Source of the DNA: Candidatus Iainarchaeum sp.
Lineage (GTDB): Archaea > Iainarchaeota > Iainarchaeia > Iainarchaeales > VGJJ01
NCBI GenBank assembly: GCA_016867455.1
Contig: VGJJ01000003.1
Coordinates: 1-49,109, forward strand
Direction: 5' to 3'
DNA length: 49,109 nucleotides
A program made the position numbers and the translations under genes. Under the pieces are notes generated by a model that made no database searches, was not told the DNA's origin, and saw nothing but the letters and a program-made list of their open reading frames with translations. Positions 25,739 through 45,839 of this stretch are shown here, one piece after another (position 1 is the first letter of the stretch; the number at the start of each line of letters is the position of its first letter).

Positions 25739-27229
25739 ATGAGCTTTCAACGCACGGAAACATACACGGTCCAGACGGACATCCTCGTGAGTGTGGACAT
25801 TGGTAAAGCCGACACGGAATTCGTGAAGAGTTACATTCTCCACACACCCGAATTTGGACCCGGAACGCGTGCATTGTTAAACGATTTGAAATCACGCATC
25901 ATTACCGAAGTAAATATTTCTTCCGAAAAAATGCTCGATGCCAAATTCGTAAACGAACTCAAAAAAACATTCCACGAAAAAGCAGAAGCACTCCTCGGAC
26001 GTGAACTTCCCGAATTATCAGCAGACGCGCGACACCAATTAGCTGCCGTCATCCTAAATGAAATGGTGGGACTAGGGCCCATTGAATTTTTGCTCGCGGA
26101 TGGAAACCTCGAAGAAATAGTCGTCAACTCCGCCACGGAACCCGTGTGGGTGTATCACAAAAAACACGGGTGGCTGAAAACCAACATCATCATCAACCCC
26201 GAAGCTGAAATTCAAAATTATGCAAGCATTATCGCCCGACGCGTAGGAAAACAAGTCACCATCCTCAATCCATTATTAGACGCTTACCTAGTTACGGGAG
26301 ATCGTGCCAACGCGTCACTGTTTCCTATTTCCTCGCGCGGAAACACGATAACCATTCGTCGCTTTCGCCGTGATCCGTGGACGGTAACCGATTTCATTGA
26401 CTCCAAGACCGCGAGTGCAGCATCAATGGCAATGCTGTGGCTAGCCATGGAATACGAACTCAACATCATCGTTTCCGGCGGAACTGGAAGTGGAAAAACA
26501 ACCTTGTTGAATGTCATGCTTCCCTACATCCAGCCTAATCAACGCGTACTCACCATCGAAGACACGCGCGAATTACAACTCCCCGACTTCTTGCACTGGG
26601 TTCCCATGACCACGCGTGAACCCAATGCGGAAGGAAAAGGAGCCGTCACCATGCTCGACTTGCTGGTTAACTCCCTGCGTATGCGCCCAGACCGAATCAT
26701 TGTCGGTGAAATTCGTCGTCAACGCGAAGCCGAAGTCATGTTCGAAGCCATGCACACGGGACACAGTGTTTATGCGACGGTGCACGCCAATACCGCGGAA
26801 GAAACCATTACGCGATTGATTAGTCCACCCATTGAAATCCCCTCATCCCTGTTAGAAGCCGTGCACTTGAACGTGGTCATGTTCCGGAATCGTAGGTTGG
26901 GCGTGCGACGCATTTTGCAGCTAGCGGAGTTTGTTCCCCAAAAAGCAGGAAGCGAAGGAAAAATACAACTCAAACCCAATATTTTGTATCGCTGGAGAGC
27001 GGCCACGGACACGATTGAAAAATACGCGGAAAGCATCCGCTTGTTTGACGAATTAGCGTTACACACGGGTTACACCGCACAAGAACTCACTCAAAATCTC
27101 TCCGAAAAACAACGCATCCTCGAATGGATGGACAAACAAAAAGTGCGCGACATTAATGAAGTAGGAAAAGTCATGGCCCAATACTACGCGGAACCGGAAG
27201 CCATTCTCAAGAAAGCAGGAATAAAGTGA
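25739..27229 (+). CDS. Type II/IV secretion system ATPase, VirB11/TadA/PilB-like
   Basis: Walker A GGTGSGKTTLLN, TIEDTREL, MRPDRIIVGEIRRQREAEVMFEAMHTGHSVYATVHANT. Confidence 0.95.
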   Translation: MSFQRTETYTVQTDILVSVDIGKADTEFVKSYILHTPEFGPGTRALLNDLKSRIITEVNISSEKMLDAKFVNELKKTFHEKAEALLGRELPELSADARHQLAAVILNEMVGLGPIEFLLADGNLEEIVVNSATEPVWVYHKKHGWLKTNIIINPEAEIQNYASIIARRVGKQVTILNPLLDAYLVTGDRANASLFPISSRGNTITIRRFRRDPWTVTDFIDSKTASAASMAMLWLAMEYELNIIVSGGTGSGKTTLLNVMLPYIQPNQRVLTIEDTRELQLPDFLHWVPMTTREPNAEGKGAVTMLDLLVNSLRMRPDRIIVGEIRRQREAEVMFEAMHTGHSVYATVHANTAEETITRLISPPIEIPSSLLEAVHLNVVMFRNRRLGVRRILQLAEFVPQKAGSEGKIQLKPNILYRWRAATDTIEKYAESIRLFDELALHTGYTAQELTQNLSEKQRILEWMDKQKVRDINEVGKVMAQYYAEPEAILKKAGIK

Positions 27230-27233
27230 CGGA

Positions 27234-28139
27234 GTGTTGAAACGCATGATCACGCACTTTAACATGCCCCTCAATGTGCTTCCCATGCCACTCTTACGAT
27301 GGGCGAGCAAACATCTTGTAGGATTGGGAACGCGTTTTGGAAAATTCATGCCCCTCAATGATGTGGACATGAGAAAAGCCGAAATTCCCATGTCAGCTAA
27401 AGAATATGCAACCATGAGCATGGTCATTATTCTCTTCTACTTCGTCTTCTTCGGCTTCTTATTTTTTGTCATGGCATTCCGATTATTCACCAAACTCGAC
27501 ATTTTTCTTCCGCTAGTTGTCAGCATGGTCTTTTCACTCTTAGTTTTCGTACAACTCGTCACGTTTCCCATTATTCGCGTCACCAAAAAAGTCCGCGACT
27601 TAGACCGGAATCTCGTATTCGCCCTCCGCACGATTCTCGTGCAACTGCGCTCAGGCATAAGCTTATTCGAATCCATGAAAGTGGTAGCGGAAGGAAACTA
27701 TGGCGCCGTATCCAAAGAATTCAAACGAGCTGTGGACCAAATATCCACGGGAACTATACAAGAAATCGCCCTCGAACGGATTGCGGAATACAATCCCAGC
27801 ATCTTTTTCCGCAGGGCCATATGGCAAATCGTCAATGGAATGCGCGCCGGAGCAGACATTACCACCGTATTAGGAGAAAGCGTGGACTCCCTCACGGAAG
27901 CACAATCCATCCAAATACGCAATTACGAGAGCCAAATGAAAATACTCTCACTCGTGTACATGATGTTAGGCGTCATTGTTCCCGCGCTCGGAATCACTTT
28001 CCTCATTGTCCTATCATCATTTCCACAAATTCAAATAACTGAATTATATTTCTGGATTCTCCTCGCAGGAGTTGGAATCGCCCAATTCATGTACATGGGT
28101 ATTGTGAAAAGCAAACGCCCAACATTGCTGGGAGACTAA
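27234..28139 (+). CDS. Type II secretion F-domain (TadC/FlaJ-like) membrane protein, first copy
   Basis: FALRTILVQLRSGISLFESMKVVAEGNYGAVSKEFKRAVDQI; TM segments; follows the ATPase. Confidence 0.88.
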   Translation: MLKRMITHFNMPLNVLPMPLLRWASKHLVGLGTRFGKFMPLNDVDMRKAEIPMSAKEYATMSMVIILFYFVFFGFLFFVMAFRLFTKLDIFLPLVVSMVFSLLVFVQLVTFPIIRVTKKVRDLDRNLVFALRTILVQLRSGISLFESMKVVAEGNYGAVSKEFKRAVDQISTGTIQEIALERIAEYNPSIFFRRAIWQIVNGMRAGADITTVLGESVDSLTEAQSIQIRNYESQMKILSLVYMMLGVIVPALGITFLIVLSSFPQIQITELYFWILLAGVGIAQFMYMGIVKSKRPTLLGD

Positions 28140-28140
28140 C

Positions 28141-29154
28141 ATGACCGCACGAAACAACATTGCATTTTTGCGCGGCATCGTGGACGCGTTTGAGAAGCAA
28201 TTCATGTACTTGGGAATACGCATCTCTTCTCGAAAATTCGTCATCAACATGATCATGTTTTCGTTTACATTAAGTGTCGTGTCAACCATTGTAACAAGCA
28301 TCGTTTTCAAATGGCCCTACTTCCTCGTAGTAATTGGATTCTTCCTAACTTTTTTGCTGGTCATGGGAGGAATTTACTTATTTTTGGACTTACAAGCCGA
28401 AGGAAGAGGAAAACAAGTCGAAAAAGTTCTTCCGGATGCACTCCAACTCGTGGCGAGCAACATCAAATCCGGACTCACTACGGAACGCGCACTATTGGTT
28501 TCCGCCCGACCCGAATTCGGTCCATTTGAGTACGAACTCAAACGCATCTCCACACGCGTACTCTCCGGTGTTCCGATTGAAAAAGCAATATTAGAAGTTC
28601 CCAAACACATCAAATCAACTCTCGTGGAGCGTACCATGTGGCTGCTTGCGCGCGGAATTTCCTCCGGAGGAGAAATTGCCGATTTGCTGCTGCAGCTTTC
28701 ACGTAATCTGCGCACGCAACTCACGTTACAAAGCGAAGCCCGCGCATCCATATCCATTTACGTAATCCTCATATTTTTCTCCGCAGCGTTTGGCGGGCCC
28801 GCATTGTATGCAGTATCGAGCTTCATCGTGGAAGTCATGAACGCGCAAGTATCATCCCAACCCCAAATTAATGCAGGAAGCATGGCTGCTGCTGGATCAC
28901 GATTCTCCGGATTAGGTTCATTTGTGGGTGGCCGCACCGAAATGATTTCTCCTGAATTTGTCATATTCTTCGCACAAATCATGCTATTTGTCGGAGGAAT
29001 ATTTGCCGCACTCATCTTGGGAGCCATCGCCACCGGAAAAGAAAAAGACGGAGTCAAATACATTCCAGTAGTTATGCTATTTTCATTCGGATTGTATTAC
29101 ATGATACGGTTTGTTTTACACTCAGCGTTTGGAACACTCTTGCTGGGAGGATAA
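28141..29154 (+). CDS. Type II secretion F-domain (TadC/FlaJ-like) membrane protein, second copy
   Basis: LPDALQLVASNIKSGLTTERALLVSARPEFGPFEYELKRISTRVLSGVPIEKAI; multiple TM. Confidence 0.88.
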   Translation: MTARNNIAFLRGIVDAFEKQFMYLGIRISSRKFVINMIMFSFTLSVVSTIVTSIVFKWPYFLVVIGFFLTFLLVMGGIYLFLDLQAEGRGKQVEKVLPDALQLVASNIKSGLTTERALLVSARPEFGPFEYELKRISTRVLSGVPIEKAILEVPKHIKSTLVERTMWLLARGISSGGEIADLLLQLSRNLRTQLTLQSEARASISIYVILIFFSAAFGGPALYAVSSFIVEVMNAQVSSQPQINAGSMAAAGSRFSGLGSFVGGRTEMISPEFVIFFAQIMLFVGGIFAALILGAIATGKEKDGVKYIPVVMLFSFGLYYMIRFVLHSAFGTLLLGG

Positions 29155-30101: not shown

Positions 30102-30563
30102 ATGCATTTTGGAAAACGAGGGCAGTCCGCACTCGAATACTTAATGACTTACGGATGGGCGTTGGTCGTTATTGTGATTGCGGTTGCAGCATTAGTAGTA
30201 TTAATTGACCCCAGTAAGATTCAAGGAAACCAATGCGATCCACGCTTTGGACAATTCACGGTGAGTCAGAGTAATTTAGTTGCCGGAACATCGCAGTTCG
30301 CTTTGGTTAACCAGACCGGACATGGTGTGACATTGACTGCTGTTAACGTAAGCGGAACCTATGCCGGTTCAACAGCCTACAATGACACCGGATCAGCCAT
30401 CACATCCGGAACGACGTTGAACCCTAACCAAACGGTCACGGTCATCGTCGATCAAGACCCTGATTTGACATCGGGATCATACAACTTGACCTACACGTTC
30501 ACTTATGACGCGGGTCAGTTGACAGGACTCACCGCTGCCGGAAGCTGCCACGGAACCATCTAA
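30102..30563 (+). CDS. Type IV pilin, class III signal peptide
   Basis: KRGQSALEYLMTYGWALVVIVIAVAALVVLIDPSKIQGNQC; ATG at 30096 or 30102 with strong SD. Confidence 0.9.
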   Translation: MHFGKRGQSALEYLMTYGWALVVIVIAVAALVVLIDPSKIQGNQCDPRFGQFTVSQSNLVAGTSQFALVNQTGHGVTLTAVNVSGTYAGSTAYNDTGSAITSGTTLNPNQTVTVIVDQDPDLTSGSYNLTYTFTYDAGQLTGLTAAGSCHGTI

Positions 30564-44042: not shown

Positions 44043-44678
44043 TTAGTTCAGCGTTGTGGTCCCAGCACCTACTGCTCCAATCAAACTAGCCAGCATGGCT
44101 CCTGCCATAAATAATCCTAAAATGAATCCCACAATCATCAAGATGACCCATACTACAATGGCTTTTCCAAGACTCAATGCGTTTGCCACTGAGACAAGTA
44201 CCACCATCAAGTACACTGTGTAAAGGAACCAAACTAGATTGATTATTCCTCCAATGTATGGAATCATGGTCACAATAAACATGATGATGTTAACCACGAT
44301 TAATGGAAGAAGTAATTTAGCAGCCAAAAAATAATTTGCATCAAATGAACCATTTCCTCCTAATAATTTGGCAATGAACGCCACGATGTGATAGAAAATG
44401 TAGCTACTAATAACGGTTAGCAGTGCCATGAGAATGGGCATAATAATAATAGCCAAAAAACCCAGGCCGGCAATCAAACCAAAAACATCACTATTTTGAG
44501 TAGCTCCTCCAGCAGCAACACCAATTATTCCTCCTAGAACGGCGAACATGAGTCCAAACAACAGGCCGATAACCGCCCCATAAATGGCAAATCGTTTGTG
44601 CGCCCAATTAACATCTACATTTCTCAGTTCCTGCTCCATCCTCTCTTTGGGATGAATAAGTATTTCAAAAAACTCCAT
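44043..44678 (-). CDS. Yip1-domain-like membrane protein
   Basis: MEFFEILIHPKERMEQELRNVDVNWAHKRFAIYGAVIGLLFGLMFAVLGG...; multi-TM. Confidence 0.75.
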   Translation of the reverse strand: MEFFEILIHPKERMEQELRNVDVNWAHKRFAIYGAVIGLLFGLMFAVLGGIIGVAAGGATQNSDVFGLIAGLGFLAIIIMPILMALLTVISSYIFYHIVAFIAKLLGGNGSFDANYFLAAKLLLPLIVVNIIMFIVTMIPYIGGIINLVWFLYTVYLMVVLVSVANALSLGKAIVVWVILMIVGFILGLFMAGAMLASLIGAVGAGTTTLN

Positions 44679-44769
44679 ATCATCATCTCCTCAATCCACT
44701 GTGTGGAAACTATATCCCGAATAACCTCGTCGTATTTAAGGAATCGTTTCAATAGCTTTTTTTTTATCG

Positions 44770-45774
44770 CTAATTAGTGCCTCGGCACGATCCACTGGCC
44801 GTTAATCCAGTCAAATTTCCCCAGTCGTAGTTAAACTTATACAACAAAGTATAGGTCCCCACTCCCAATGATGGGTGGCTGACTGTCACTGTTTTGGTTT
44901 CATTTGCATTAAATTTATCCGAAAGATTGGTATTTGCTGAAAAGGGTTTTCCCGCACTAGAAACTCCTGAAATTTCGACTGAATTAAACGTAACAGATTG
45001 CCCCGTTTGGTTAACTAACACAAATTGAGACATCTTATCACTGATATTCGATTGGGTGATAACAAATTGACCAAATTTAGAATCGCATTGATCTCCTTGA
45101 ACAGTGCTTGGATTGACGAGTATTAGCAATGCAGTCGAGGCTAATAGAGTGACAATAATAATTCCCGGGAGAAGCAACACCACGAGTGCGCGGAGACGAG
45201 AAATGTTGTTAGCCACTGAAATAACGACTGTCGTAAGATAAATATTGTAAAAATACCAAAAAAACGAAAGAAGGGAACCAATGACCAATCCGAGAATGGG
45301 AATAATATTCAAAATGAAAATAACAATGTTGATGATAATGTTCCCAGCAATGGCGGGCCACAATAATCGCGACCACAAATAATAATTATTTTGGAACGTT
45401 CCCGTTCCGCCTAACAGTTTGGCCAAAAAATGAACGATGTGCATTCCCACATGAGTGAACACGAGTGCGAAAATAGCTCCTAAAATGGGCATGATAAGAA
45501 TAGAAAGCAATCCCAACCCCGCAATGACTCCCACTACTGGGATGTTTTGTAGCATTCCTGCTGCGACTGCGCCAAAAATAATACTAAAAACGGAGAAGAT
45601 GATTCCAAACAACAAGCCAATAATTCCACCATATATTCCAATTGTGCGGTTGGCCTCTTGCATGTTGACATGCTTAACATCTTCCACCATTGTTTCCTGG
45701 GGGCGCAAAACAATATCGAAAAAACTCATACTCATCCTCACCTGTCCACGTAGACTAGGGGAGTAAAACCCCAT
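44770..45774 (-). CDS. Yip1-like membrane protein fused to a pilin-type ectodomain
   Basis: N-terminal part paralogous to 44043..44678; C-terminal LLILVNPSTVQGDQCDSKFGQFVITQSNI...FVLVNQTGQSVTFNSVEISG...NLTGLTASGSCRGTN matches the pilin at 30102; likely start is an internal ATG (MSMSFFDIV). Confidence 0.85.
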   Translation of the reverse strand: MGFYSPSLRGQVRMSMSFFDIVLRPQETMVEDVKHVNMQEANRTIGIYGGIIGLLFGIIFSVFSIIFGAVAAGMLQNIPVVGVIAGLGLLSILIMPILGAIFALVFTHVGMHIVHFLAKLLGGTGTFQNNYYLWSRLLWPAIAGNIIINIVIFILNIIPILGLVIGSLLSFFWYFYNIYLTTVVISVANNISRLRALVVLLLPGIIIVTLLASTALLILVNPSTVQGDQCDSKFGQFVITQSNISDKMSQFVLVNQTGQSVTFNSVEISGVSSAGKPFSANTNLSDKFNANETKTVTVSHPSLGVGTYTLLYKFNYDWGNLTGLTASGSCRGTN

Positions 45775-45839
45775 TCTATTTAAACCAGAGGCGCCAGAGA
45801 AGAATGATAATCAGGTGATTAACTATCGAAAAACCACTT

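Follow-up and report, generated by a model that had tools for sequence, protein, structure and literature searches.

The window analysed here is the whole stretch of 49,109 nucleotides at the start of contig VGJJ01000003.1 of Candidatus Iainarchaeum sp. Its pilus operon encodes an assembly ATPase, two T2SSF proteins and a pilin (Table 1), and 14 kb away from this operon, among translation genes, lies an open reading frame (ORF) in which a Yip1-family membrane base and a type IV pilin head are joined. This arrangement, first noticed in a preliminary description of the DNA, is confirmed: the 334 codons are open throughout, with zero internal stops. Translation probably starts at M16 (45729), since a ribosome-binding-like sequence precedes it, a TATA-like box lies upstream, and M-x-FF-D/E is the N terminus of nearly all close relatives.

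The draft genome comprises 62 contigs, and two genes wrongly merged by an assembly or frame error could produce such an ORF. This explanation is very improbable. In a self-search of the whole genome (0.88 Mb), the fusion matches exactly two other genes, the neighbouring Yip1-like gene and the 30.1-kb pilin, and no other copy of head or base is present for mis-joining. Moreover, GC content is continuous across the junction, the flanking gene order is continuous and agrees with that of two relatives, and an analogous fusion occurs in an unrelated assembly (G044, see below).

Table 1. Features of the fusion locus and the pilus operon in the window, and major-type pilin heads on non-pilin anchors in other genomes.
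Feature	Position	Strand	Remarks
Yip1-pilin-head fusion ORF	44770..45774	-	334 aa as listed; 319 aa from probable start M16
TATA-box-like TTTAAATAG	45776..45784	-	Upstream of start; putative, read from the sequence
Ribosome-binding-like GGTGAGG	45736..45742	-	Ahead of M14/M16; putative, read from the sequence
Yip1-like base	45136..45735	-	Residues 14-213, five predicted TM helices; PF04893; profile of 8 relatives, 198 bits
Splice zone in TM5	45118..45159	-	Residues 206-219, Yip1 and pilin homologies overlapping; profile alignment
Pilin head	44773..45120	-	Residues 219-334; beta-sandwich, two conserved Cys, five N-X-S/T sequons; homology, AF2, profile
Neighbouring Yip1-like gene without head	44043..44678	-	211 aa, tandem paralogue; PF04893 E 1.3e-8; 43% identical to base
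Pilus assembly ATPase (TadA/FlaI type)	25739..27229	+	PF00437 E 1.7e-40
Two TadC-type platform proteins	27234-28139, 28141-29154	+	PF00482 E 1.8e-14, 2e-13
Major type IV pilin	30102..30563	+	Class III signal KRGQSALEYLMTYGWA; family from which the head derives; sequence homology
Lipoprotein ending in major-type pilin head	L036:4446-5387 (G001:C2)	+	Same-genus genome
G029 protein with major-type head	L241		490 aa
G068 TM-anchored protein with major-type head	L223:1947-2390		
Two G021 proteins with major-type head	L230		

Base, head and junction

Residues 51-212 of the fusion match the Pfam family PF04893 (Yip1) with an E-value of 3.6e-8 and 33.9 bits, against a curated cut-off of 28.6, and judged by its sequence the protein belongs to the Yip1 family. 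The NCBIfam collection contains no family for the fusion, the Yip1-like neighbour or the pilin. The paralogy previously claimed between the N-terminal ~200 residues and the neighbouring protein holds, as residues 15-220 align to positions 44079-44681 with 43% identity (E 8.1e-43, own-genome search). Yip1-family proteins, whose archaeal members form COG2881, have a cytosolic N terminus, five TM helices and a luminal C terminus (PMC6682643); this precedent and the charges of the fusion suggest that its N terminus lies inside and its C terminus outside. The fusion shares with the family a conserved GGxGxF motif in the TM2-TM3 loop and, by prediction, the five-TM core and the N-in/C-out topology, whereas the examined relatives finish in a short outer tail and the fusion in a 115-residue pilin head. 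An AF2 model built from a shallow four-row alignment contains five helices and a seven-strand sandwich (mean pLDDT 71, pTM 0.49), with the helices of the base placed at low to medium confidence at residues 38-74, 78-120, 127-155, 161-189 and 193-220.

A base of this kind, with its five TM helices, short cytosolic N-terminal segment and conserved loop, might signal to the cytoplasm once the outer head engages a pilin, a filament or a surface, and eukaryotic Yip1 proteins have been discussed as possible channels or receptors (PMC6682643). We consider such a sensor improbable, given that a cytosolic signalling domain is absent and that headless paralogues share identical base motifs.

At the other end of the protein, residues 200-333 are 46% identical to the product encoded at 30141-30557 by the pilin gene (E 3.4e-32, own-genome search), and SALEYL-type pilins are the closest to the head. 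The AF2 model of the stand-alone pilin displays the same seven-strand head as the fusion. A Foldseek search with the pilin head model returned weak matches (E ~0.005-0.009), among them S. acidocaldarius FlaF (4p94) and the P. calidifontis (Pyrobaculum) pilus (8fk7). The whole-fusion model retrieved potassium channels and other beta-sandwich proteins with a TM-score of ~0.2, matches which we judged meaningless.

Of 53 positions invariant among three pilins the head keeps 40, and it also keeps both cysteines. When neutral drift to 50% identity was simulated, the frame stayed free of stops in 48 of 5000 runs (~1%), which argues that the head is probably functional. A recent, functionally neutral gene fusion with no selected role would fit the occurrence of the fusion in a single genome and its lack in the three nearest relatives. 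It is nevertheless a quite improbable explanation: divergence exceeds 50% in the base and in the head alike, yet the frame, both cysteines and 75% of the pilin-invariant sites are kept, against the small fraction of frames surviving neutral drift; the upstream region carries the TATA-like and ribosome-binding-like sequences; and independent cases of such fusions are repeated.

To locate the junction we used profiles built without the fusion itself. Yip1 homology extends from residue 13 to ~213 and pilin homology from ~206-216 to 333, the pilin profile scoring 139.5 bits. The preliminary description had assigned both the last TM helix and the C terminus to the pilin; for the last TM helix this is only half right, as the inner half of TM5 (RLRALVVLLLPGIII) is Yip1 and at most the outer half (IVTLLASTALLILVNPST) could be pilin-derived. 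No class III signal was found in the fusion: the pilin profile aligns only from its position 17, and the KRGQSALEY positions are without counterpart. By that defining test the fusion is therefore not a prepilin. An internal start giving a normal pilin is ruled out by the lack of any Met between residues 111 and 248 and of a signal motif at the junction. Compared with archaeal type IV pilins (class III signal, SALEYLMTYGWA type), the head is 46-50% identical and has the same cysteines and strand pattern, whereas the fusion lacks the class III signal, the cleavage site and the complete pilin N-terminal helix. On sequence grounds the fusion protein is not a pilin, although its head is pilin-homologous. 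Pfam, the self-search and the profile alignments agree on the architecture initially claimed, a polytopic Yip1-like base carrying a pilin ectodomain.

Relatives and origin of the fusion

The comparison set comprised 87 Diapherotrites genomes of the phylum; one genome of the same family as the window is a Candidatus Diapherotrites MAG (JACQJG010000019.1). A first scan of genome contigs with the fusion as query retrieved no relative, and viral contigs yielded nothing. Across the 87 genomes no second copy of the exact fusion was found beyond the source genome, and long Yip1 frames in G009, G013, G015, G025, G029, G030 and G050, some of them unrelated proteins, bear no pilin head.

The site between the aIF2-gamma-like and PIN/Fcf1 genes holds one headless Yip1-like gene in G001 and G002, which belong to the same genus, and two Yip1-like genes in the window. 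In the tree the base of the fusion is sister to the neighbouring Yip1 (support 93/83), and the pair is sister to the syntenic copy of G002 (85/82). The simplest history compatible with these sequences is a tandem duplication of the Yip1-like membrane gene in the lineage of the window, after which one of the copies captured the 3' end, coding for the head, from a type IV pilin gene. Close relatives (G001, G002 and G003) are indeed without the fusion, an absence that had been named beforehand as a refutation of the observation. Synteny and the tree nevertheless identify the fusion as a derived tandem duplicate, and fusions of this kind have arisen independently elsewhere, which makes an error unlikely. 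A further tandem Yip1-like pair, both members headless, is present in another family of the order (L033, G028:C130:2042-3432).

Among the 87 genomes the exact form is confined to one, and an independent Yip1-pilin fusion exists in G044, from another family of the same order. The ORF (L084:811-1914, + strand, G044:C34) encodes a Yip1-like base (Yip1 profile E 5.8e-19; PF04893 24.8 bits, below the cut-off) followed by 138 residues that match a different pilin family, one of minor pilins. Its head is 35% identical (E 9.9e-18) to a minor-type pilin of G004 that bears the class III motif, and similarity between the head families of the window and G044 fusions is undetectable. Descent of both proteins from one inherited fusion is ruled out by their unrelated heads and by bases that stand apart in the tree, many branches of which are weak. 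The G044 fusion also lies outside pilus operons, flanked by radA-like and aminotransferase-like ORFs. The RadA-like ORF beside it (L084:2-604, - strand, G044:C34) stops after GK and runs into CVSKDTKI, which resembles the start of an intein.

Pilin heads on other anchors across the phylum

A profile of the minor-pilin head of the G044 type has matches in 53 of the 87 genomes. The class III status of the 86 ORFs with such heads was assigned by reading their N termini, as the automatic class III filter undercounts true pilins. Class III pilins account for ~54 of the 86, and ~26 carry the head without a class III signal, an approximate figure as a few are truncated or have a degenerate motif. Five of these signal-less proteins have multi-pass bases (G044, G009, G031, G060 and G021), three are lipoproteins (G005, G021 and G028), seven are Sec-type proteins with extra C-terminal domains, and ~11 have plain TM anchors, including one (G000:C41) from the genome that contains the window. 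Two polytopic proteins of similar appearance, each ending in a minor-pilin head, occur in different families of the order (L169 and L171; G031:C41 and G060:C17) and possibly form one conserved fusion family. In the Sec-type proteins of L165, L170, L172-L175 and L177, an N-terminal minor-pilin head is followed by 70-180 residues of no assigned kind.

The major-type head is found on five further non-pilin anchors (Table 1); for the N-terminal domain of the G001 lipoprotein, no convincing relative was found elsewhere in the phylum. As read from the sequences, pilin heads have repeatedly come to sit on non-pilin anchors in this phylum, and this recurrence is more surprising than the single fusion gene.

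Lipoproteins and Sec-secreted proteins carry such heads as well, so the head might have nothing to do with pili and be a beta-sandwich of general extracellular use. In the main rival explanation, it is a free-standing module for extracellular adhesion or recognition, a glycosylated Ig-like beta-sandwich that pilins merely happen to share; once fixed on a membrane base, it would bind a partner cell or a surface at short range, as an adhesin or a receptor, independently of pili. The variety of carriers of both head families (lipoproteins, secreted proteins and diverse multi-pass bases), the five N-glycosylation sequons and the lack of an operon link for the window fusion are consistent with this. 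We nevertheless regard it as somewhat less likely than the pilus role proposed below, since the majority of minor heads sit on class III pilins and anchored heads adjoin true pilins in the pilus clusters of four genomes. In the latter (G002, G019, G048 and G068; L142, L145, L156 and L223), the gene for a signal-less TM-anchored head lies immediately beside that of a true class III pilin, accompanied by a TadC-type gene. Pfam confirmed T2SSF for the G068 cluster and for the upstream portion of the platform ORF of G015; the platform genes of G002 and G019 are 57% identical to a G004 homologue and without a Pfam match, and the TadC match of G048 is weak. The pilus ATPase of G003 (L038:104-3154, + strand, G003:C12) is 1016 aa long and matches the 496-aa ATPase of the window in two blocks with ~500 residues between them, which looks like an intein.

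Proposed role and comparison with known systems

We tentatively propose, with a probability of roughly two in five, that the fusion is a fixed, non-polymerising pilin derivative acting as a pilus-base or envelope anchor, a cap or an assembly-control element. The product of the duplicated gene would cross the membrane five times, its N terminus lying inside and the pilin head outside, on the outer end of TM5. Having neither a prepilin-peptidase site nor a free pilin helix, it would be neither processed nor polymerised, and would thus escape incorporation into the filament. The Yip1 base would serve as a stable membrane scaffold, and the fixed head could dock on a pilin or on the filament base through the interaction surfaces of pilin heads. 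The fusion may in this way anchor, cap or control the assembly of the pilus in the envelope, as has been proposed for ArlF/ArlG. The overwhelming homologies of both parts, the intact frame, the apparently constrained head, the origin of the base as a derived tandem duplicate, the recurrence of anchored pilin heads and the ArlF/ArlG precedent speak for such a role; the occurrence of the exact fusion in one genome only, the position of both the window and G044 fusions outside pilus operons, the Sec-secreted and lipoprotein carriers of the heads and the weakness of the structural matches speak against it. The original suggestion of a pilus anchor, nucleator or decoy is a reasonable one, to which the anchored heads inside pilus clusters of four other genomes lend indirect support.

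ArlF and ArlG are duplicated archaellins, that is, filament subunits turned anchors, and within the superfamily of the archaellar motor an ArlFG stator is described for that motor alone (PMC8667602). These stators (FlaF/FlaG) retain the beta-sandwich head of a duplicated filament subunit, have an altered filament-forming N terminus and are fixed in the envelope (PMC8667602). The fusion is likened to them by analogy: a modelled sandwich head on a membrane base, no class III signal and, by prediction, no polymerisation. ArlF/ArlG differ in having one N-terminal TM helix, a location in archaellum operons and a reported interaction with the S-layer, whereas the fusion has a five-TM Yip1 base and a pilin rather than an archaellin head. 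With neither the archaellum operon nor the archaellin paralogy that mark ArlF/G, the fusion is not a member of this group; by analogy, it may work like one.

A broader and more doubtful proposal is that Diapherotrites repeatedly made pilin heads fixed parts of the membrane, twice on Yip1 and in further cases on a plain TM helix, a lipoprotein or a polytopic base of another kind, some of them in pilus operons, and that these anchor, cap or gate type IV pili, so that the ArlF/ArlG-like principle would have evolved many times outside the archaellum. If true, recurrent membrane-fixed, signal-less pilin heads in a DPANN phylum would be an unrecognised envelope component of archaeal pili, and the poorly understood prokaryotic Yip1 proteins would be tied to cell-surface structures. 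Diapherotrites, which belong to DPANN, are believed to rely on contacts with other cells.

A search of the open-licence literature turned up no paper that describes a Yip1-pilin protein. The minor pilin CpaL of Caulobacter, which carries a vWA domain (PMC12607857), belongs to a Tad-type pilus system and likewise joins a pilin module to one of unrelated origin. CpaL is predicted to retain the pilin N terminus and a cleavage site and to add a C-terminal module (PMC12607857), whereas the fusion retains the pilin head and has another N terminus in place of that of the pilin.
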